From NCBI GenBank assembly GCA_015233825.1, contig JADGIS010000001.1, forward strand, positions 1 to 64,000: a DNA stretch of 64,000 bases, given 5' to 3'. Below the pieces are notes generated by a model. The model was not told the origin of the DNA and searched no databases. It worked only from the letters and a program-made list of their open reading frames with translations. A program made the position numbers and the translations under genes. The stretch is from Erysipelotrichaceae bacterium RD49 (GTDB taxonomy: Bacteria > Bacillota_I > Bacilli_A > Erysipelotrichales > Erysipelotrichaceae). Positions 7,821 to 59,884 of the stretch are shown piece after piece; positions within the stretch are counted from its first letter, which is position 1; every line of letters begins with the position of its first letter.

Positions 7821-8036
7821 ATGAAAAATCCAAACGCAAAGTCATCCCGCCAGGTCCAGCTCAGCAAATTCCTGGCCAAAATTCTGCGCCATCCTCCTGA
7901 GCTGATCGGCCTCGAGCTGGATGACCAAGGGTGGGCTGCTATGGATGAGATGCTGGTAAAAGCAGCCAAGCCGGATTTAACGCACCAAATGCTGGAAAAA
8001 ATCGTAGCGGACGATGAAAAAGGCCGCTGTCAATGA
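7821..8036 (+). pseudogene. kptA: kptA fragment (RNA 2'-phosphotransferase N-terminus)
   Basis: The 71 codons from an ATG with a strong GGAGGTG site match the N-terminal half of KptA/Tpt1, which removes a 2'-phosphate from RNA using NAD: the SKFLAKILRHPPELIGLELD segment and GWAAMDEML, then IVADDEKGR. At that point the frame runs into the left end of the IscB element, whose bases supply the TGA. The rest, including the NQGHS-type NAD-binding region and about 110 residues of the usual 180, is absent from this locus. It is also not found on the far side of the element, so there was a deletion as well as an insertion. The product should be inactive. Confidence 0.85.
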
Positions 8037-8294
8037 CCCCACCCAAACTGCCTTGCAATTTGGATGGGGCTTGAAATAAGAAGCTTTCATGCATCTGTTT
8101 CAAGCCTGATTGACTAGCCTGAGTCTTAACTGACTACGTTATTTGAGAATCAACCTTAAACAAGTTGAAATAGGCACTCCAGGATGTTCAGCTCTAGTCC
8201 TGGACTCTGCGGACCTGTATTAAACAGTACTGAGGTCAGGTGCAGTGTGCAGGTCAACAAACCTCTTATAACATTGGCGAAGGCTGGTGCTTCA
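8036..8294 (+). ncRNA. Putative omega RNA scaffold of IscB, copy 1
   Basis: In known IscB systems the guide RNA scaffold (omega RNA) is encoded just 5' of iscB and its guide comes from DNA flanking the left end. Here the region from the left-end hairpin to GGTGCTTCA is nearly identical to the copy-2 region, although it has no reading frame, and similarity drops sharply after that point. Several helices can be drawn, including GAAGC (about 8080) with GCTTC (about 8289) as a possible closing or pseudoknot pairing. RNA ends and structure are inferred, not shown. Confidence 0.65.
8037..8069 (+). repeat. Left-end hairpin of element copy 1
   Basis: CCCCACCCAAA pairs with TTTGGATGGGG around a TGCCTTGCAA loop, with one mismatch region. 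It sits just inside the left boundary and has the same arms as the right-end hairpin, as expected for a TnpA recognition hairpin. Confidence 0.7.
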
Positions 8295-8351
8295 ACTACC
8301 TTTTAGGACGCTTTATTATCCTAAAACGAATTATTACCTTGGAGGTACAAT

Positions 8352-9644
8352 ATGGTTTACGTATTAGATGTAGATGGCAAGCCCTTAATGCCTACCCAAA
8401 GGCACGGCAAGGTGCGCCACCTTTTAAATGACAAGAAAGCCAAAGTGGTAAAGAAAAATCCATTTACCATCAAGCTTTTATATGATTCAACTAGATATAC
8501 CCAGCCCGTCACTCTTGGAGTAGACGCTGGTTCTAAACAGATTGGTCTAAGTGCTTCGAGTGAAGATAAAGAACTGCTGGCATGGGATGTCCAGAACAGA
8601 ACAGATATCACTGAGCTGATCTCGACTAGAAGAGAAGCGCGCAGAGCAAGAAGAAACCGCAAGACAAGATACAGAGCGCCACGCTTCAATAACCGAGTGC
8701 GTACGAAGCATAAAGGCTGGCTTGCTCCTTCGGTTGAACACAAGATTGATACTCATCTTCATTGCATTGAAGAAGTCCAAAAACTTTTGCCTGTAACCAG
8801 GATCGTGGTGGAGACAGCTTCTTTTGATACGCAGAAATTAAAAAATCCAGAGATTTCTGGAACTGAATACCAAAATGGTGATCAAAAAGGATTCTGGAAT
8901 GTTCGTGAGTATGTTTTATTTCGAGACAACCACGAATACCAGCACTGCCATGGCAAGAAAAAAGATCCTATCTTAAATATTCATCACATCGAAAGCCGAA
9001 AGACTGGCGGCAATTCGCCTTCCAACCTGATTACGCTTTGCGAAACGTGCCATAACGAATACCACAAAAAGATCAAGTCAGAAAAGATCAAAGGTCCAGA
9101 AGACTTCAACCTGCCCAAGCGGACTAAGCCGTATCGAGATGCGGCTTTCATGGGCATCATGCGCTGGACCCTGCTGGAACGATTAAAAGAAGCCAACCCC
9201 GATATCGAAGTCATCAATACCTATGGCTACCTGACCAAGAACAAAAGAATTGAATTGAACCTAGCTAAAGTGCATTACAATGACGCCTATTGTATTGCAG
9301 GCAATCTCAATGCCAAGCCGTTAAAACAATGCCTGTACCTCAAGAAGATCAGAAGGCATAACCGCCAGATTCATAAGTTCAACTTCATCAAAGGACATAA
9401 ACGCAAGAACAACCAGGCACCACATATGGTTGGCGGGTTCTGTCTTTTTGATAAAGTTCGGTACAAAGGGCAAGAGTGCTTTATTACAGGGCGCAGACAG
9501 TGCGGCGCTTTTACTTTAAAAACCTTTTGGGGACAAAAGATTAAAGATGGTGCTTCGATGAAAAAGCTGATTCTTGTAGAAAGAACCAGCGGATACATGA
9601 AAGAAACAGCAACTCGGCAATTCCTGGCCACCCAAACCGTATAA
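8352..9644 (+). CDS. iscB: IscB RNA-guided nuclease (RuvC + HNH)
   Basis: The 430-residue protein has the whole IscB layout: an N-terminal PLMP domain (PLMP at 11-14), RuvC-I with Asp58 in LGVDAGS, an Arg-rich bridge helix (93-115), RuvC-II with Glu154 in IVVETASF, and an HNH domain (about 194-240; HH211-212, Asn225). RuvC-III follows with His308/Asp311 in HYNDAYCIAG, and then a C-terminal DNA-recognition domain. IscB is the family from which Cas9 arose and cuts DNA guided by omega RNA. One oddity: the first zinc CxxC of the HNH domain reads YQHC (Tyr197), while the broken second copy still encodes CQHC. C230 and C233 are kept. The ATG follows GGAGG, and the stop codon lies inside the right-end hairpin. 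Confidence 0.93.
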   Translation: MVYVLDVDGKPLMPTQRHGKVRHLLNDKKAKVVKKNPFTIKLLYDSTRYTQPVTLGVDAGSKQIGLSASSEDKELLAWDVQNRTDITELISTRREARRARRNRKTRYRAPRFNNRVRTKHKGWLAPSVEHKIDTHLHCIEEVQKLLPVTRIVVETASFDTQKLKNPEISGTEYQNGDQKGFWNVREYVLFRDNHEYQHCHGKKKDPILNIHHIESRKTGGNSPSNLITLCETCHNEYHKKIKSEKIKGPEDFNLPKRTKPYRDAAFMGIMRWTLLERLKEANPDIEVINTYGYLTKNKRIELNLAKVHYNDAYCIAGNLNAKPLKQCLYLKKIRRHNRQIHKFNFIKGHKRKNNQAPHMVGGFCLFDKVRYKGQECFITGRRQCGAFTLKTFWGQKIKDGASMKKLILVERTSGYMKETATRQFLATQTV

Positions 9645-33757: not shown

Positions 33758-33833
33758 TGGTGGAGCGTAGGAGGATCGAACTCCTGACCCCCTGCGTGCA
33801 AAGCAGGTGCTCTCCCAGCTGAGCTAACACCCC
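33758..33833 (-). tRNA. tRNA-Ala (TGC), pair 1
   Basis: 76 bases with encoded CCA. Anticodon loop TTTGCAC between CCTGC and GCAGG, giving anticodon TGC. Identical to the second copy 1.8 kb away. It follows tRNA-Ile by about 20 bases in the same transcript. Confidence 0.96.
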
Positions 33834-33852
33834 ACATCAATAAGTCAAAAAA

Positions 33853-33929
33853 TGGTGGGCCTGAATGGACTCGAACCAGCGACCTCATCCTTATCAGGGA
33901 TGCGCTCTAACCACCTGAGCTACAGGCCC
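33853..33929 (-). tRNA. tRNA-Ile (GAT), pair 1
   Basis: 77 bases with encoded CCA. Anticodon stem CATCC/GGATG encloses CTGATAA, giving anticodon GAT. T-loop GGTTCGAGTCC. It is first in the Ile-Ala transcript. Confidence 0.96.
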
Positions 33930-35522: not shown

Positions 35523-35598
35523 TGGTGGAGCGTAGGAGGATCGAACTCCTGACCCCCTGCGTGCAAAGCAGGTGCTCTCCCAGCTGAGCTAACACCCC
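35523..35598 (-). tRNA. tRNA-Ala (TGC), pair 2
   Basis: Same sequence as the pair-1 tRNA-Ala: anticodon TGC, encoded CCA. Confidence 0.96.
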
Positions 35599-35621
35599 AC
35601 ATGAAATAAGTCAAAAAATAA

Positions 35622-35698
35622 TGGTGGGCCTGAATGGACTCGAACCAGCGACCTCATCCTTATCAGGGATGCGCTCTAACCACCTGAGCTACAGGCCC
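35622..35698 (-). tRNA. tRNA-Ile (GAT), pair 2
   Basis: Same sequence as the pair-1 tRNA-Ile: anticodon GAT, encoded CCA. The Ile-Ala spacer differs from pair 1 only by small changes. Confidence 0.96.
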
Positions 35699-43832: not shown

Positions 43833-43863
43833 AAGAAAACCTCTGGCATTTGCCAGAGGAAGA
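43833..43863 (-). terminator. Terminator of the sortase-like gene
   Basis: On the minus strand CCTCTGGCA-aat-GCCAGAGG followed by TTTTCTTTG. Confidence 0.88.
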
Positions 43864-43870
43864 AACAGAA

Positions 43871-44803
43871 TTATTGCAGACCCATGATCTGCACATCGGA
43901 TTGCGTGTAAGGATAATTGGTGAATTGATAGGGGTAACCAGGGCCATCAACCGGTTCATAGTGAACCAAGCGGTTGGTGGTATCGGTAATGCAGGTTTGG
44001 AATACGATGCCATTGTTGGCCCGCGCTCTGGCAATTTCTTCCGTCGATACACTATCGTCAGAAATCCAGGTATCCGTCATGGCATAGACCTGACCATCGA
44101 CTTCTACATAAGATGGAATCGAAGCGATTGTATCTCCATTGAGCATGCCGGAATGCGCGATGAACCAGCCATCTGCCCAAAGGCCGATCGATCCATCGTC
44201 CGGAGCAGCCGCAGCACCCCAGTACGGGATATAGCTGACATGCCAGATTCCGTCACTTCCGATTGGGGACAGATAGGTTGGAGAAGCGGGAGCCGGCTGG
44301 GTTGTGACCTGAGCGGTCTGCTGCAAGAGCTCATTGGGATCAACTTCCTCAAAGGGAACAAAACTGTTGGCTTCTGCTGGCCGGATTGTATTTTCATCGC
44401 TGGTCGATTCAGCACTCGCCAAAACCGCTGGCAAGGGTGTCTGGCCGACGGTATCGGCTGCCGCCGCAAAAACAGGATGGGAAGCATTTTCTGTCCGCTC
44501 AACTTGTAAAGTCGGGGTAGCGGACTCTTTTTGAGCCGCGGCCTGATCCATGGTGACAGCCTGGCTTGGCTGTGTGTTTACAGCCTTGGCGGGTTGATCG
44601 TCAGCCGGTGTCGGCTGTTCATCAACCGTAACTGCGATTTTCTGCTCTGATGCTGGATCATTGGCCACAATAGTCGGCGTGGTCTGCATGATTCCATAAC
44701 TGACAATTCCAGCAATCGAGCACCCTAGTGCAAGAGCAATATATTTGCACCATCTGGTGTCTTGACAAGACTTCAACGCTTTCAATTTTGATGTATGCTT
44801 CAT
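43871..44803 (-). CDS. Secreted protein with sortase-like domain
   Basis: The 310-residue protein has an N-terminal membrane anchor or signal (about 20-38, ALALGCSIAGIVSYGIM), then a long Ala/Thr/Pro/Gln-rich linker (about 45-180), then a C-terminal domain with the residue order of sortases. His217 lies in WFIAHSG, a GD and a YVEVDGQVYAM strand follow, then Cys271 in QTC and Arg278 seven residues later (TNRLVHYEP). Classic sortases have this His-Cys-Arg triad for joining proteins to the wall. The domain is short and divergent, so the activity is inferred. The ATG follows GGAGGGAA. It is apart from the pilus locus and has no substrate gene next to it. Confidence 0.6.
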   Translation of the reverse strand: MKHTSKLKALKSCQDTRWCKYIALALGCSIAGIVSYGIMQTTPTIVANDPASEQKIAVTVDEQPTPADDQPAKAVNTQPSQAVTMDQAAAQKESATPTLQVERTENASHPVFAAAADTVGQTPLPAVLASAESTSDENTIRPAEANSFVPFEEVDPNELLQQTAQVTTQPAPASPTYLSPIGSDGIWHVSYIPYWGAAAAPDDGSIGLWADGWFIAHSGMLNGDTIASIPSYVEVDGQVYAMTDTWISDDSVSTEEIARARANNGIVFQTCITDTTNRLVHYEPVDGPGYPYQFTNYPYTQSDVQIMGLQ

Positions 44804-45736
44804 ACGATTCCCTCCGATACCCGTTTTCAGGGTCCATTTTCTCTTCTCCAAACAAGAAGATCGAAGAACAAAAATTGAGGAACAAAATTGGGGGACTACT
44901 CATTTTTAAGCGTTTATTTCAAACCCGATGAGTAGCATTCTTTATTTCTCCTTAACTCCATCTTTATTCTATCCTTATGCATATATTCATGTAGGGTATT
45001 TGCCGCTAAATTTTTGATAGGCAGAATTTTCTCTCTTCTTGTGGAGCTCTATTTTTATAGTAATGGCTATATCGACATTATTGATGTCATTGAAAAAATA
45101 AACCTCAAAATATTCGTTGTGCCGGTTGCATATATTATCTTTTAAGTGTTGCTTTTTTGTCCTACCAATTTACCTTCACTCTATCCTTTCAGTTGTTTAA
45201 AATATTAATTTATGTTAGTTTTCCCTTTATAGAGTGGTCAACCTTCTTAATTTTATCTTTACAATAAGAGCTATTCATAATTCATTCTCACTGTCCAGTC
45301 CAAAAAGAGAAGGCTTTCAATTTTGCGAAGTTTATCGTTACCTTTTTATTCTCCTTATGCTCTTTGTTTTCATGCTATTCAGCGCAATATTTATGCATGA
45401 TTGCATCCGCATTTTCATTTCCAATCCACCCTACTCTTGCCCCCTCACCCTGCGTCTCTTTACCCGAAAACGCGTTTTGATGTCCCTGTATTTCTTTTAA
45501 ACAAAGGTGTCTGGTCAATCTGCAGGGCAGACAGCCGGTCATCGCAGTCTTCTAAAGAACACCTGGCATTCATGGCTATCCGCTGCAAAGACGGAATTTG
45601 GCATTTGGCGATTATTTATAGAACGGTTAATTCAGTCAATATAAATCACTCGAAATTGAAAAAATGCACTTTGTTGCATGAATTAAAGCCGGCTTCTTTG
45701 GTTTTTAAATTGGAAAAGCAGGTCGAATCCGGCATT

Positions 45737-47454: not shown

Positions 47455-48027
47455 TTACTCACTGGTAGTCTGCGAGATCAGCTGATCCAATTCGTCTGGC
47501 GAAGCCCCCAAGTATTCCCACAGATCGACGGCTTTGGCCACATTCCAGTCAATGGTGCTGTCCACACCCCAGTTCGATACCGTATGGCGGCTTTCGTCAT
47601 AGCCAATTCCGCAGTTGACAGGTTTGCCTTCTTCGATTTTGTAGATGGCTGGTGTATACAGAAAATAAGGAAAGATAGCCAGGAGCTTCTGACCTTGGTC
47701 GGTCGAAGAAACCAGCGTCATATCGCCTTCATTTTCCCGGTACAGCTCATAATCCGTTGTATTGAGTTTATAGACATTATACCGGCCAGGGTGCTCTTGC
47801 CGGGTCTGCTCAATATAGGTATTCATTGCGGCACAAAAATTACAGTTATCGCGTTCTACCAGTAAAGTAAATGTCTCTTTATCCTCCAGCTTGGTTTCCA
47901 GCTGATTGATATCGATCTCTTGAATCGTTAACGGTTCTAAAGGATCTTGCTTTTGACATCCGGCAAGACCAAACACAAGTGCAACGGCCATCCCCCACAT
48001 GGCCATTCTAGTCAATATTTTTCTCAT
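47455..48027 (-). CDS. Thioredoxin-fold lipoprotein
   Basis: A 190-residue exported lipoprotein: N-terminal helix and lipobox GLAGC (Cys24), then a thioredoxin-like domain with the redox pair Cys62-Asn-Phe-Cys65 in RDNCNFCAAMN. The rest of the domain is short. Similar proteins assist disulfide handling at the cell surface and some are bacteriocin accessory proteins. Here the context (glycerate kinase upstream, pyrophosphatase-like gene downstream) gives no clue. The ATG follows AAGGATAGTG. Confidence 0.8.
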   Translation of the reverse strand: MRKILTRMAMWGMAVALVFGLAGCQKQDPLEPLTIQEIDINQLETKLEDKETFTLLVERDNCNFCAAMNTYIEQTRQEHPGRYNVYKLNTTDYELYRENEGDMTLVSSTDQGQKLLAIFPYFLYTPAIYKIEEGKPVNCGIGYDESRHTVSNWGVDSTIDWNVAKAVDLWEYLGASPDELDQLISQTTSE

Positions 48028-52706: not shown

Positions 52707-53843
52707 TTAGTCCAGATACGAAGGCCGTTTGGGTTTATGTTCGTGATGGCGCCTGTAAGCAATCCCAGCCAATGCGCCCAGAAAAATTGCCAAAGCACCA
52801 CCGAATACTTTTAACCATAATCCAGCTTGCGTCTTGGTGGTTGTAGCCGGTTTTGTTGCTGAATACGCTGGAGCCGATGCCTGCGATGTTTGGCCGACGA
52901 CTGGCGTATTGTTGCCTGGACCAGGTGTCAAAGTCGTATCCGGCTTATTGGGAATCGTCGGAGTGGGTGCCGGCTGGCCCGGTTCGGGTTCGGGCTGGTC
53001 AATCGGTTTGTTTTCATATTGGATGGTGACCAGATTATCAACGGCTTCTTTTTTCTGGTTATCGATATAGACCGAACCATCCAAATCCATAGCCACTTTT
53101 ACCAAACGTTCAGAAAGCTGGTAGCCTTGCGGCGCACTGATTTCCTTGATGTAGATCGTCTGTCCTAAATTCGGACGAAAGACAACTGTACCGGTGGTTG
53201 TATCCGCACTTCGGGCCGCGATCATCCCCGTTTGTTCCATGTCGCTGTAAGCGGCAAAGACAAACTTCGCATTGCAGATCGGCTGATTTTGGGGATCGAT
53301 TTTCTGGATTTGCAAATCCGGAATTGGATTGGGCTTCACCCGAATGGTAATACGGCTCTCTTCTTTTTGTTCTTTCGCATTCCAGAGCGGCAGGATGCCA
53401 AGAAAATCACCGACCAGTTCGTATTGAGCCGGATTGCTGACGACAAAAAGATAAAGTCCATAGGGGATAGCCTCAAAATAAGCACTTCCATCCGAGCCGG
53501 CTGTGGCAGTGGCATCCGGTGTGGTTTTATGCGCTTTTAAGAATTGAATGGCCTCTTTCATCGGTTCAGACTGATCAATCTGACTGCTTTTTAACGTACA
53601 GTCTTTGTATGGTTCTAGAAAGACAAACTCACTTTGTACAAGATCAGCCACCCGGTACGCTTCAAATTCAACATGCTCGGCCGGACGCCCGGAAGCGGCA
53701 GGCTCCAGCCGGATTTCAATCGTTCCTGTCTGCTGGTTAAAAGCAGCAGGATCCATTTCTTCGGCCGCCAGGATCATGCAGCCGCTGCAAATACAAAGCA
53801 GTCCAGTAATCAAGATCAGAATCCAGGATTTCCATCGTTTCAT
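52707..53843 (-). CDS. Ancillary pilin, SpaA-type
   Basis: A 378-residue surface protein: signal peptide (1-27), a SpaA/Cna-B-like domain at about 170-285 (with YIKEISAPQGYQL, a Glu that often makes an isopeptide), a Pro-rich linker (EPEPGQPAPTPTIPNKPDTT), a C-terminal helix and a basic tail. No LPxTG is visible before the helix; the best candidate is TTTKTQAG. It may be a basal pilin with a changed sorting signal or be held by the membrane. It is the last gene of the pilus operon, directly after the sortase. Confidence 0.8.
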   Translation of the reverse strand: MKRWKSWILILITGLLCICSGCMILAAEEMDPAAFNQQTGTIEIRLEPAASGRPAEHVEFEAYRVADLVQSEFVFLEPYKDCTLKSSQIDQSEPMKEAIQFLKAHKTTPDATATAGSDGSAYFEAIPYGLYLFVVSNPAQYELVGDFLGILPLWNAKEQKEESRITIRVKPNPIPDLQIQKIDPQNQPICNAKFVFAAYSDMEQTGMIAARSADTTTGTVVFRPNLGQTIYIKEISAPQGYQLSERLVKVAMDLDGSVYIDNQKKEAVDNLVTIQYENKPIDQPEPEPGQPAPTPTIPNKPDTTLTPGPGNNTPVVGQTSQASAPAYSATKPATTTKTQAGLWLKVFGGALAIFLGALAGIAYRRHHEHKPKRPSYLD

Positions 53844-54728
53844 TTATTTCGCCTTTCTTTTGGCGGATACAAAGGAAACGAACAACACCAGCATGGCAAC
53901 GCCAGCCATCAGCCACGGCCAAAGTTTGAAAAGCTGTTCACGAAGCGATGGTTTTTGGACGACTGGCTTTCTGATTTCTTCCTGAACCTGCTCTGTCCAG
54001 TCGACCCGTCTGCCGGTGACTAACAGCCGATGGTCATTGATTCCATAAGGCGTACACGTCAGCAAAGTCACCAAGTCTTGTCCCTCGATAATGGCTAGCT
54101 TCTCGACTTCTTCAGGCAGAATCACCTCGATATCGCAAACCTGGTAAGCCATCGTCTGCTTCGGGTTTTCAATGTGGAACAAGTCCCCGATTTCCATCTC
54201 ATCCAGGCGGGTGAAAAGCTCGCTTGACATCAATCCCCGATGAGCGGACAGGACCGTTCGTCCTGTTGAAGATCCGACCGGCAGTGAAGAGGAGGGCAGA
54301 TGTCCTGCTCCTTTTGAGAGCGCTTCTTCTTCCACGCCATGATAGATCGGCAGCGTAATTCCGATCTTCGGGATATGGAGAATCCCCATGACCCCATGAT
54401 CGAGCACACAAAGCTGCTGGTCATAAGGCGGCAGCTTTTCAAATTGATTCGTACGGACCACATCAAAGGACTGGCCGGTATCGGCAAGTTCCAGCTCCTC
54501 CGTTTTTGGCTCCTGTACGTGGCCAGCCAGGTTTTCATTCCAGGCGTGCGCCTTGGCTAGAACCTCATCGATTTGATGGTCGTCCAATGTTTTGGCTTGT
54601 TGGCGGATTAATTGAATCTGGTCAGCGGCCTGGTGGTAAGAAAACCGGGACCAGATCGTCGGCGCCAGACAAAGTGCCAGCCCGCCGACTAGCAAGACAA
54701 GGCGGAGTGTTCGTTTCAATCCTGCCAT
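53844..54728 (-). CDS. Class C (pilin) sortase
   Basis: A 294-residue membrane enzyme that joins pilin subunits by amide bonds. It has the active-site His in LSAHRG, the Cys in TLLTCTPYGINDHRLLVTGRR (with the Arg 8 residues on), and N- and C-terminal membrane helices typical of class C. The usual DPF/DPW lid motif was not found. It lies between the major pilin and the ancillary pilin; its start is 12 bases after the pilin stop, and the ancillary pilin gene starts immediately after it. Confidence 0.94.
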   Translation of the reverse strand: MAGLKRTLRLVLLVGGLALCLAPTIWSRFSYHQAADQIQLIRQQAKTLDDHQIDEVLAKAHAWNENLAGHVQEPKTEELELADTGQSFDVVRTNQFEKLPPYDQQLCVLDHGVMGILHIPKIGITLPIYHGVEEEALSKGAGHLPSSSLPVGSSTGRTVLSAHRGLMSSELFTRLDEMEIGDLFHIENPKQTMAYQVCDIEVILPEEVEKLAIIEGQDLVTLLTCTPYGINDHRLLVTGRRVDWTEQVQEEIRKPVVQKPSLREQLFKLWPWLMAGVAMLVLFVSFVSAKRKAK

Positions 54729-54740
54729 ATCAAATTCCTT

Positions 54741-56606
54741 TTAGTTCTTTTTCTTCTTTTGCAAAGTCATGCTCAGTCCACCGATAACGAGCACGCTGCC
54801 CGCAGCCATCGAGATCCAGGCAGTATTCGAACCGGTTAAAGGCAGCTCTTTTCCAGTGCGGTTGACCACCTGCAGCTGGACAGAACCATTTCCTACTTCA
54901 GTTTCTACAACTTGATCTTTGATCTCTTGCTGGTCACCATTCACACTTTCGATATAAGAGACTTTCGCATTCAGCTGCTTGAGGATCTTATCTGTCTTTC
55001 CCTCACCTGCTGTGTAGTTATTGCGATTTTCCGTATAGGTTGGGGTAATGTCTAATTTCAGGGGCGTCAGTGGACCATGATAGCCATCTGGAGCCTGGGT
55101 TTCTTTAAGATAGTAAGTTCCTTGGTCCAGGCCGAAGATTTTGATATTTCCATTCGCTTCGGTAACCAGCTCGGCTCCATCTGTTGTGGCCTCAGACTGG
55201 ATTGCATATCCATCTGTCACTTTTTTGAGCCGAATCTCATTTTTACAATCCTGATCTCGATAGAGGCGGAAGTGAGCACCCGCTAATGGCTGCGGGGTAT
55301 CACCTTCTGATTTGGGTTCAGCAACTTTAACGCCATCAATCTGGAATGTAAAGGCAACAACCGTATCCCATGGTGTAAAGCCGGTCGTTCCCTGGCCATC
55401 GCTGTCTGGATCATTAGAGTATTCTAATCGAACATTGTTTTCAAAACCGGGTCGGCCTGGATTTGAAGCGGCTGTCTCTGAGAGTTTGGCATTGTACGTC
55501 ACTTCAATGGTCTGCCCATAAGGATGATCGGCTGCTGGAGCACCAGCGGCGGCACCATAAATTTTCTGGTCAATAATGCCTTTGATATCAGAAATCACAA
55601 TCTCAAAGGTATTTCCCTGCGTGATTCCTGGTGTTTTGATTTGGTAATCAGAAGCTTGCAGAGAGTAAGTCTTTCCACTGTCCGCACTTGTCCCCTTAAC
55701 CGTAATGGCAATGGAGTCCGACTGGAAATTTAAAGCGGCATCCATCTTATCGTGGATGACAAGTGTATAAGTCTTGTACCCGCTGATATTGGGAATCCCA
55801 ATCTGGTAGCGGTAAGGGATAGTCTGGCCGATTTCGTAGTCACCAATATCATTCCAGCCATCACTTCCCAGGGTATCTTTGTGATCGTCTTCCTGGATTT
55901 GTTTGTGGATAGTTGGGTAGACACCTTTTAACTCCAGTTCCTGGTTGTCGTCTACAGTTAACATCAGGCAAAGAGAATGTCCTTGATCCGGCTCAGAGGA
56001 AGCAGATGGCTGGGCGACTTCTTCGTCAATCAGGTAGTATCCTTTGGTCAATCCTGAAATTTGGTAGGTGGAACTGTTCTCAGTTACACTTTGGGTTTGT
56101 GGTGTAACATTGGCGGCAGCCAATTCCTTGCGCAGCGTTTCGCTGAATTTTCGCATCCGGCTGGTCTGACCCTCTATCTTTCCAGTCTCTGATTCTGGCA
56201 AATCGGTAAGTCCTGCAATGGTATCAAGTGCTTTGGCAATCGTAATCGTTTTGGCTTGGTCATCACTTACCTGAGCCCCTTCACCCACACCTGTCGTGAT
56301 CGTTCGGTAAACCGCTTTTTGGACAGCTTTTTGAGTATTTGCATCACTGGTAAAGGTATAGTTAAAGGCCCCGCCTGTCCCTGTCGTTAAGTCAAAGATC
56401 TTGTAGAGATTAAACTTTCTTCCCTTCAGTGATCCAGCATTGGTGCTGGTCAGCGTGATGGTATAGGGGCCATTGTTTCCTGCAGCTTCTTGGTAAACCG
56501 GGCTTGTTGTCATCGCCTGGACGCTGGTCATGCTGGCCATTGGAACCATCAAAGTGGTTAAAGCCGCAAGCAAAGCATTTCGCGGGCGGATGAGATGTCT
56601 TTTCAT
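54741..56606 (-). CDS. Major pilin subunit, LPxTG
   Basis: The backbone subunit of the pilus. The 621-residue protein has a signal peptide (1-31), several SpaA-like domains, an E-box (YYLKETQAPDGY) and the sorting signal ELPLTG before a membrane helix and KKKK. The pilin motif Lys that the sortase uses is likely in VYPTIHKQI (about 230). The ATG follows AAGGAATTGATTT. It lies in the operon after the adhesin gene and before the sortase. Confidence 0.93.
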   Translation of the reverse strand: MKRHLIRPRNALLAALTTLMVPMASMTSVQAMTTSPVYQEAAGNNGPYTITLTSTNAGSLKGRKFNLYKIFDLTTGTGGAFNYTFTSDANTQKAVQKAVYRTITTGVGEGAQVSDDQAKTITIAKALDTIAGLTDLPESETGKIEGQTSRMRKFSETLRKELAAANVTPQTQSVTENSSTYQISGLTKGYYLIDEEVAQPSASSEPDQGHSLCLMLTVDDNQELELKGVYPTIHKQIQEDDHKDTLGSDGWNDIGDYEIGQTIPYRYQIGIPNISGYKTYTLVIHDKMDAALNFQSDSIAITVKGTSADSGKTYSLQASDYQIKTPGITQGNTFEIVISDIKGIIDQKIYGAAAGAPAADHPYGQTIEVTYNAKLSETAASNPGRPGFENNVRLEYSNDPDSDGQGTTGFTPWDTVVAFTFQIDGVKVAEPKSEGDTPQPLAGAHFRLYRDQDCKNEIRLKKVTDGYAIQSEATTDGAELVTEANGNIKIFGLDQGTYYLKETQAPDGYHGPLTPLKLDITPTYTENRNNYTAGEGKTDKILKQLNAKVSYIESVNGDQQEIKDQVVETEVGNGSVQLQVVNRTGKELPLTGSNTAWISMAAGSVLVIGGLSMTLQKKKKN

Positions 56607-56658
56607 AAATCAATTCCTTCTTTCAAATTTCTCTTCGTAAAGTCTCGATCGACTTTGT

Positions 56659-59600
56659 TTAAAACGTCTTGAATGAATGGGCAGATCGTTTTGAGCGGTG
56701 TTTCGGCCTGACCAAACTGGTGACGATCATCGTTGAGCCCATACTTAAAGCAAGTGGAACCTGCCAGGCCCCTGTTTTGGGTAAAATCACCTGCTTGTCA
56801 TTGCGCAGTTTGATATGCAAGATCGAACCACTGTTACTGGTAGGGCTCCAGAAGGCGTACTCTGTATTTTTAAAATCCGAAACTGGCGGCTCTGTGAGCT
56901 GAGTAACGGCGCTTGCCCCTGACCCGGCACGAAAGGCGTACAAGCCGTTGTCGTAGAACCCTTCAAACCGGTACGTTTTGGGGGCACCGCTTTTCTTTAC
57001 AAGCGGCTTGTATCCTTCAGGAGGACTGATTTCAGCCAAGTAGTACTCCTTATCTGTCTTAAGTGGGCCAAAGTCGATTCGGCCTTGTTCATCACTGATG
57101 CCTTCATCCAGCTTTTCCTTCAGCCCAGAATCGCCATACAGCCCGAAGACTGCTCCTTGAAGCGGCTGGTCATTGCCATCTACTTTGTGCACCTGCAAAG
57201 AAAAGCCTTCGGTAAAGTTGGAAACAACCAGTTCCAGGTTGGTTCCATCAAATTTCACCGTCTCGCTATCTGCCAAGCAGGTAACAGTTGATCCGTTCAC
57301 CTTGAATGGAATGGCTTTGGAATAGATCGTATAGCCGGCCGGGGCCTTCGTTTCACGAACGGTCCATTGGCCATCTTCATCCAGCGTGAACCGAGAACTG
57401 CCATTGGTATCGGTAGTCAAGGTAAAACGGCGGTTGGAGGGTGAAGTCACTGTAAACTGTGCGCCAGGCAGGCGGGCACCGCTGCTGCCATCGACTTTGT
57501 AAAGGTTTAAGTCAACGATCGGCTCATTGGTTATGCGGATTGGACTTAACGTCATGAAACATTCTTCCTTACTGTTTTTCGGATCCAGTGCCAGAATATG
57601 TACCGTATCATCCAGCCGGTAGCCGTCCGGAGCTTCAATTTCCTCGATGGTCAACACGCCAATCGGGAATTTTGTGTTGCTGGCGATGATTTTTCCCTCG
57701 GAATTCGTTGTTAATTCCCACTCCTGGACAGCCGTTGCTTTTTTGATATTGGCCAAGGTGGCTTTAGCAGGATCTAAGGCGTAATACTTCACCATAAATT
57801 TGGCTCCCGCCACGGGCTGGTTTGTCCGCTTGTCCGTTTTCACCACCAAGACGTCTGCCTGGCAGTATTGGGCTGGATCGTAAACGATGATTCGGTTGGG
57901 TGCGGCTGTTGATGAACCGGCCGTAACCGTAATGGAATAAGATGTCCGATCCAGCGCAAACCCTTTAGGCGCTGTAATCTCCTTAACCCAATACGTTCCG
58001 GGTTTGACCACAACAGTCTGTGAACAGCCATCAGCGCCAATCGTCAAAGTTCCAGCAGCCGTCGATCCTTGGCCATACTCATACACAGCTCCCTGCAGGG
58101 AATAATTCGATCCCCCGTAATTGGGAAGCAGTCCATTTTCGCTTTTGATCGACTTAACAATCTGCAAGGCGCCTTTATCTTCTTCGCCCATAAAGCCAAA
58201 AGCTAAGGGCTGCCGGCCGCTGTTATTGCCTTGGAAGTTCGGGCCGGAACCTGGAAAGTCCGCCAGATAGACCTTGTAACGGGCTGGCGGGCCAGGCTGA
58301 CTGACCACTTCATTCCAGCGATCCTTCATTCCCGAACTCCAAATCGTCCCATTGAACGTAATCTCTGAAATTGATTTTCCGGATTGGGCATGAGAGACCA
58401 TTTCATTGGTAAAGATGACTTGCTGGGCGGTCGTATACGCTTTAAAGAGGTTAGCCGGACCGCCATAGCCGTAGTAAATGGCTTTTCGTAAATTTGAATC
58501 GCTGACTTCCCGAATGTTCGAAGCTTTTTCATTTGGCAAGGGTTCTGAGCCAAGAGCGTTGGCACAAAAGGCATTGCAGCCATTGGAGAGAGTCCAGAGA
58601 TAATTGCTGACGGTATACCCGCCAAAAGTGGGTACCGAACCATACAAATTGCGGCTGGAAATTGTGACTTCGCCCGTTATGCCGCCACTATTGGGTGCGG
58701 CTGCCCGGACTTTCGCTCTGGCTCGCGTTTGAGGGGCGGCCTTTTGAACCAGGCCTGGATTGAAGGCTTGCAGCCAGCCTGGAATGGCATCAGGATCATC
58801 GAAAACATCTGTTGGCAGAAACCCGTTTTCGTCCAAAAACGAAGTGATTTCGCATTTAGCTCCCAAAGCTTGGCGAAAGTCTTTGAATTCATCGGGATTG
58901 CCCTGCAGGTAGCTTTCGTAGAGGATCACAAAGTCGGTCTGCCATTGGTGGTAAAACTCTTCTACAGCGCTTTGGGATAAGTCTTTCCAAGTCACTCTCT
59001 GACTTGCAGTCTCACCACTCTGGCTGCTCGAATCCAAAGATTCTTCTTGAGCTTCCAAAGTGGAATTTGAATCTGCAGTTCTTATCGACTCTGACAGGCT
59101 GCTTTGGCTCTCAGTTTCAGTCGATCCACCCCATTCCGCCTGGCTGCTGGAATCGGCAGTTTCAAAATTCCCTTCTAAACCAGGATCAAGATCGCCCGAG
59201 ACCAGCGGCTTTTCAGAGAATGAATCATTGGGAAGCTGGCTTAAAGCAAACTGAGAGACATCATCCAGCTTGGAGAAGTCAGAGGATAAACTCGAAATCG
59301 TTGATCCCAAATGCATCAGAATCTGGCCAATCGAAGCGGCATTGGATTTGTTCTCTTCTGTTTGAGAGAGCGGCTCCTGCTTTGTGTCGTCCATCCTTTC
59401 AAAGCTGGAATCTTGAGCAGGCTCGAAAGATTCAGTTTGGCTGTCATCAAAATCTTCTGTTTTCCAGTTGGAAAAGGAGACGACAATCGGAGTATTGCGA
59501 TCAAAGGAGCGGGTGATCTCATAGCTTTCCTGGTCCTTGGCCGCCTCTATTTCCTGCTCATCGATCCAAAGTCGTTCAATCCGGGCGTTTTCATCTGCTT

Positions 59601-59820
59601 TAGCCAGAATTCGAACTGGATCCTGGCCTGGCAGCGGGATGATGAGCCTTTGATGGGTACAGGTCCACTCGTGCTGATCTTGCTCAAGGTGGACTTGGCC
59701 TGCGCCTTTGGCTTCGATTGAAATGGATGGTGGGTCACTATTGGTCAGCTGGCGCATTGAGCCAATGTTTCCAAGCGACAGAACAGCGCAAAGGGTAAGT
59801 CTGACAAACGCTTGAATCAT
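56659..59820 (-). CDS. Pilus tip adhesin with thioester domain, LPxTG
   Basis: A 1053-residue surface protein and the first gene of the pilus operon. After the signal peptide come a Ser/Glu/Gln-rich linker (about 125-290) and then a thioester-type (TQxA/TED-like) domain: Cys419 in FCANALG and a Gln (466 or 467) in TAQQVIF can make the internal thioester used to bind host surfaces covalently. Three or four SpaA/Cna-B repeats follow (for example IEEIEAPDGYRL, VRETKAPAGYTIY), ending with LPKTG and a basic tail. I chose the ATG at 59820 (AAAGGAAATTTT site). It should sit at the pilus tip. Confidence 0.9.
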   Translation of the reverse strand: MIQAFVRLTLCAVLSLGNIGSMRQLTNSDPPSISIEAKGAGQVHLEQDQHEWTCTHQRLIIPLPGQDPVRILAKADENARIERLWIDEQEIEAAKDQESYEITRSFDRNTPIVVSFSNWKTEDFDDSQTESFEPAQDSSFERMDDTKQEPLSQTEENKSNAASIGQILMHLGSTISSLSSDFSKLDDVSQFALSQLPNDSFSEKPLVSGDLDPGLEGNFETADSSSQAEWGGSTETESQSSLSESIRTADSNSTLEAQEESLDSSSQSGETASQRVTWKDLSQSAVEEFYHQWQTDFVILYESYLQGNPDEFKDFRQALGAKCEITSFLDENGFLPTDVFDDPDAIPGWLQAFNPGLVQKAAPQTRARAKVRAAAPNSGGITGEVTISSRNLYGSVPTFGGYTVSNYLWTLSNGCNAFCANALGSEPLPNEKASNIREVSDSNLRKAIYYGYGGPANLFKAYTTAQQVIFTNEMVSHAQSGKSISEITFNGTIWSSGMKDRWNEVVSQPGPPARYKVYLADFPGSGPNFQGNNSGRQPLAFGFMGEEDKGALQIVKSIKSENGLLPNYGGSNYSLQGAVYEYGQGSTAAGTLTIGADGCSQTVVVKPGTYWVKEITAPKGFALDRTSYSITVTAGSSTAAPNRIIVYDPAQYCQADVLVVKTDKRTNQPVAGAKFMVKYYALDPAKATLANIKKATAVQEWELTTNSEGKIIASNTKFPIGVLTIEEIEAPDGYRLDDTVHILALDPKNSKEECFMTLSPIRITNEPIVDLNLYKVDGSSGARLPGAQFTVTSPSNRRFTLTTDTNGSSRFTLDEDGQWTVRETKAPAGYTIYSKAIPFKVNGSTVTCLADSETVKFDGTNLELVVSNFTEGFSLQVHKVDGNDQPLQGAVFGLYGDSGLKEKLDEGISDEQGRIDFGPLKTDKEYYLAEISPPEGYKPLVKKSGAPKTYRFEGFYDNGLYAFRAGSGASAVTQLTEPPVSDFKNTEYAFWSPTSNSGSILHIKLRNDKQVILPKTGAWQVPLALSMGSTMIVTSLVRPKHRSKRSAHSFKTF

Positions 59821-59848
59821 AAAATTTCCTTTCTTACTCGCGAGGTAT

Positions 59849-59884
59849 AGGTGGGACAATTGCCGGGTTCTTCCAAACCCACCT
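59849..59884 (-). promoter_or_regulatory. Leader hairpin of the pilus operon
   Basis: On the minus strand AGGTGGG pairs with CCCACCT around an inner GGGTTTGG...CCCGG region, about 30 bases before the adhesin start codon. It is not followed by T, so it is not a terminator; it may affect translation or transcript stability. Confidence 0.4.

Follow-up and report, generated by a model that had tools for sequence, protein, structure and literature searches.

Remote sortase similarity in the C-terminal domain of a stalked protein from Erysipelotrichaceae bacterium RD49

According to the literature, every native sortase known in 2021 has His, Cys and Arg as its catalytic residues (PMC8361268). In a 64,000-nucleotide stretch of the genome of Erysipelotrichaceae bacterium RD49 (hereafter the window), one gene encodes a protein whose C-terminal domain carries a His, a Cys and an Arg in a similar arrangement, and this raises the question of whether the domain is related to sortases and, if so, whether it could still work as an enzyme. 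A sequence-only reading had described an export signal, an Ala/Pro-rich linker, the motifs IAHSG and QTC and an Arg seven residues after the Cys, and all of them were found at their places when we read the sequence. The literature that we searched contained no description of such a sortase.

The gene, its relatives and the layout of the protein

The gene is located at 43871-44803 of the window on the minus strand (310 codons plus a stop codon), with the coding part at 43874-44803, the ATG start at 44803 and the stop codon at 43871-43873. A probable ribosome-binding site, GGAGGG, can be read in the sequence upstream of the ATG (44810-44815, minus strand), and an intrinsic terminator consisting of a hairpin of 8 pairs and a T-rich tail lies just 3' of the stop codon (43840-43859, minus strand). 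The ORF is real and not a chance one, since it has paralogues on two other contigs, a dN/dS of 0.12-0.22 over the domain and a homologue of 41% identity in another genus.

The two paralogues are 72-74% identical to the window protein in the domain, so that the genome contains three related exported proteins. One of them (contig C277, 259 aa, 72% identity in the domain) is intact, while the other (contig C86, 74%) has an in-frame TAG between stalk and domain, at 4333-4335 of L075. This is a single in-frame stop, yet the domain behind it looks constrained (dN/dS about 0.2), and the TAG could be a recent break, a sequencing error or a case of readthrough. Between the paralogues, the dN/dS values over the domain show that it is under purifying selection.

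To find further relatives, we ran profile searches in all 316 genomes of the order, and the only other homologue was a protein of Erysipelotrichaceae bacterium OPF54, which belongs to another genus and shares the 41% identity in the domain. It was also the sole find of the profile scan of the genome contigs, while the scans for close homologues with the window protein gave no match in the genome contigs or in viral contigs. Profile searches in samples of the class and the phylum gave no additional homologue, and the weak matches of all these profile searches, including those in the order, looked like chance except for one sortase. In the plasmid and phage collections, the domain had no match at E 1, and the OPF54 protein had only chance matches at E 10.

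The window protein has a basic N-terminus followed by a hydrophobic segment (residues 21-39; 44687-44743, minus strand), which by Kyte-Doolittle analysis (maximum 1.8 at residue 21) and paralogue comparison should be a signal peptide or a membrane anchor. There is no second hydrophobic segment, and a single N-terminal hydrophobic segment with a C-terminal domain is the export layout of sortases. A (V/I)xA site at residues 45-47, after the hydrophobic stretch, is common to the paralogues and suggests, without proving it, that the signal peptide is cleaved. Residues 48-180 (about 133 residues; 44264-44662, minus strand) form a low-complexity stalk by composition, which is rich in A, P, T, Q and E, contains no cysteine and varies in length between the paralogues. 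Paralogue comparison revealed a short conserved motif in the stalk, SFVPFEEVDPNE (residues 147-158; 44330-44365, minus strand). This motif, SFVPFEEVDP, lies about 30 residues ahead of the domain and is kept partly in both paralogues (YFVPFDEVEP and SLFEEVAP); it possibly acts as an extra strand, supplying a missing one, or as a binding motif.

The C-terminal domain covers residues 183-310 (43874-44257, minus strand), with a core that extends to about residue 288. By alignments and profile-profile comparison, His217 in WFIAHSG (codon 44153-44155), Cys271 in FQTC (43991-43993) and Arg278 in TNRLVHY (43970-43972), all on the minus strand, align with the sortase catalytic His, the nucleophile and the Arg respectively. 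Cys271 is the sole cysteine of the window protein beyond the hydrophobic segment, and its counterpart is the sole cysteine of the intact paralogue. Conservation of the three residues among homologues had been proposed as a check: all four homologues retain the His and the Cys, with invariant FQTC and AHS contexts, while the Arg is present in the window protein and both paralogues but is replaced by Leu in OPF54, the only outgroup. Besides, the proteins of the source genome have a tail of about 22 residues beyond the core, which is absent in OPF54.

Comparison of the domain with sortase cores

The curated models gave no Pfam or NCBIfam family match and no sortase match up to E = 1. Even at E = 10, Pfam gave no sortase match to any of the four family members, and the PDB sequence search gave no match. 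The AlphaFold2 models were uninformative on the eight-stranded beta-barrel of sortases: made from 3-4 sequences, they reached pLDDT values of 38 and 47 and pTM values of 0.29 and 0.40. Foldseek returned no significant match and no sortase for them, and its matches are meaningless.

We then compared profiles. Sortase core profiles were built from the sortases of related genomes and compared by hhalign with the four-sequence family profile; only the cores were used, because decoys were misleading when the sortases were aligned in full length with their membrane segment. It turned out that the family matched the class C cores with a score of 27.4 (P 5e-4), while none of 200 column permutations was as good (best 20.3) and the best of 13 unrelated orthologue groups scored 17.9. 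For the class A-like cores, P was 4e-4 (0 of 200 permutations) and the alignment ran mainly through the beta5-beta8 part, so the similarity does not lie only on the motif first noticed. The combined class A-like and class C cores gave a score of 30.0 (P 1e-4, hhalign probability 58%; 0 of 200 permutations, best 18.4). These three profiles overlap one another. In all three comparisons the aligned length extends well beyond the motifs and the register is the same, with His217, Cys271 and Arg278 falling on the sortase catalytic residues, which supports the earlier claim that the domain mimics the sortase active site. Neither the class B profile nor a profile of Gln-type sortases was significant against the family.

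Rankings of single sequences were also made. Among 188 ORFs, the window protein and both paralogues came immediately after the true sortases. Among 564 real ORFs with 71 flagged sortases, the window protein (present twice) ranked third and fourth of the unflagged ones and the paralogues seventh and eleventh, again in the same register; ahead of the window protein were one missed sortase and one non-sortase protein. What is more, a search of whole genomes with a sortase-free family profile gave 30 weak matches, and one of these was a class B-type sortase, aligned on LSTCYTGTENRYVVY, that is, at its Cys/Arg strand pair.

As judged from these alignments, the similarity to sortase cores extends from about beta4 to beta8 and keeps His, Cys and Arg in register. 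The profiles went through several versions, and the domain had been picked as a candidate for its motifs, so that the register match is partly built in; because of this, we regard homology to sortases as quite probable but not as certain. Membership in the sortase family is withheld, because the domain is not recognised by the curated models and the Arg varies within the family, and what we assign to the domain is a remote sortase similarity.

The size of the domain deserves a correction. It had been called far shorter than the known classes, which overstates the difference: the core (about residues 183-288) has 106 aa, versus 112-131 aa in the sortase cores compared, and the His-to-Cys spacing of 54 is close to the 57-62 or so of class A- and C-type sortases. 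The shortfall sits before the His, where about 32 residues are found versus about 44-50 in sortases, and where what is left is one likely strand (IWHVSYI) plus the strand that leads up to the His.

Among named systems, the class A/D and class C sortases (PF04203, TIGR01076) share with the window protein an N-terminal hydrophobic segment and an exported C-terminal domain, a His after a hydrophobic strand, a hydrophobic strand ending in TC and an Arg on the next strand. Unlike them, the window domain has about 12-18 fewer residues before the His, a Cys-Arg spacing of 7, a C-terminal extension of about 22 residues and a 133-residue stalk; the curated models of these classes do not match the family, and the Arg is not conserved in the OPF54 homologue. 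In class B sortases (e.g. in L024/L055), IYGHNMKNGS resembles IAHSGMLNGD of the window protein and LSTCYTGTENRYVVY resembles FQTCITDTTNRLVHY, but the His-Cys stretch is much longer and the profile comparison was not significant. A class C sortase encoded in the window itself (53844-54728) has the same three active-site residues in register. In contrast to the target, it is canonical (PF04203 E 2e-24, class C model above cut-off) and stands among SpaA-type pilin genes.

Possible functions of the domain

For the fold, the catalytic activity, the substrate and the location of the protein, we infer the following. The explanation we favour, with about even confidence, is an exported, stalk-borne, compressed and very divergent sortase-like Cys/His domain which would act on extracytoplasmic polypeptides. 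Cys271, at the end of a beta7-like strand, would serve as the nucleophile, His217, at the end of a beta4-like strand, as the acid/base, and Arg278, at the start of a beta8-like strand, as the oxyanion helper. An extracytoplasmic polypeptide would be bound to the domain as a thioester, to be resolved by hydrolysis or by transfer to an amine. On its stalk, the domain would extend through the wall or to its edge, with the hydrophobic segment either kept as an anchor or cleaved; fully stretched, the stalk would measure up to roughly 45 nm by our own estimate and could place the domain on the outer side of the wall.

The main rival to this enzyme reading is a non-catalytic binding domain derived from a sortase, in which the old peptide groove would bind wall peptides or another surface protein and be shown on the stalk, while His and Cys would be kept for structure or ligand contact. 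We consider such a pseudoenzyme possible but rather unlikely. The loss of the Arg to Leu in the only outgroup speaks for it, as do the compression of the domain towards its N-terminal side, a region that in sortases contributes to the barrel and the groove, the long stalk, typical of displayed binding domains, and the lack of a substrate gene nearby. On the other hand, His, Cys and their FQTC and AHS contexts are invariant in 4 of 4 homologues, the Arg is kept in the three proteins of the source genome, and some sequences above the general sortase cut-off have Gln at the Arg position. The latter come from another family of the same class (L122-L127, family f12; matches at 1501 onward): they are sortase-family proteins with PF04203 E-values of about 1e-16 to 2e-19, two tested ones pass the TIGR01076 cut-off, and all keep His and Cys, while five of the six have Gln at the position of the catalytic Arg (e.g. 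TCTKDNKNTQTIYY). Therefore, loss of the Arg alone is no proof of inactivity.

A domain with no kinship to sortases, namely an orphan small beta-rich domain with a coincidental His/Cys/Arg spacing, seems improbable: it would agree with the lack of a family, PDB or fold match, with the marginal single-sequence scores (at least one unrelated protein ranks higher) and with the non-significant class B profile, but not with three overlapping core profiles at P 1e-4 to 5e-4 and 0 of 200 permutations, in one register and aligned well beyond the motifs.

Returning to the sortase-like Cys/His domain, the family might be a new sortase-fold enzyme subfamily of a few Erysipelotrichaceae, with a Cys/His dyad, a dispensable Arg and a compressed barrel held at the end of a wall-spanning stalk, with polypeptides at or beyond the edge of the wall as substrates; we think this full version unlikely. 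An active sortase relative would show to what extent the fold tolerates compression, that it may do without the Arg and that a stalk can take the chemistry off the membrane, and it would be a modest point of departure for peptide-ligation tools. An inactive domain, in turn, would be a binding domain of sortase origin. In both cases, a testable hypothesis is obtained for this unannotated family, of which one genome has three copies.

Genomic neighbourhood

In four congeners the neighbour genes are conserved, while the target gene is absent at the conserved site. In three of the four, the rubrerythrin gene is kept, at a distance of no more than about 200 bp from the 100-aa ORF, versus 2.4 kb in the window. 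The target is therefore a lineage-restricted gene that was gained or lost. An operon role with the neighbours S100, P201 and rubrerythrin was rejected, as these are syntenic in congeners that lack the target gene. There is no obvious mobile-element context, and no substrate-like gene is adjacent to the target at any of the loci examined.

The class C sortase of the window, about 9 kb from the target gene, belongs to a sortase-assembled pilus operon (52707-59859, minus strand), a separate transcription unit about 8 kb away from the target, in which three SpaA-type proteins surround the sortase; the large pilus subunit carries an LPKTG signal and shows a weak match to a thioester domain. Elsewhere in the same genome (contig C1, L080 3860-4497), a class C-type sortase is apparently frameshifted, its sequence being divided between two reading frames of 132 and 100 aa.

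Several other features of the window were recorded. A lipoprotein-like ORF at 47455-48027 (minus strand), conserved in congeners, has a weak match to PedC/BrcD bacteriocin disulfide isomerase (E 9e-8, below cut-off). At 8029-9641 (plus strand), a HEARO RNA (Rfam, 117 bits) lies directly 5' of an ORF with RRXRR and HNH domains, which looks like an IscB-type RNA-guided nuclease locus. Besides, two tRNA pairs with identical Rfam scores are located about 1.8 kb apart (33761-33929 and 35526-35698, minus strand), apparently as a result of local duplication.
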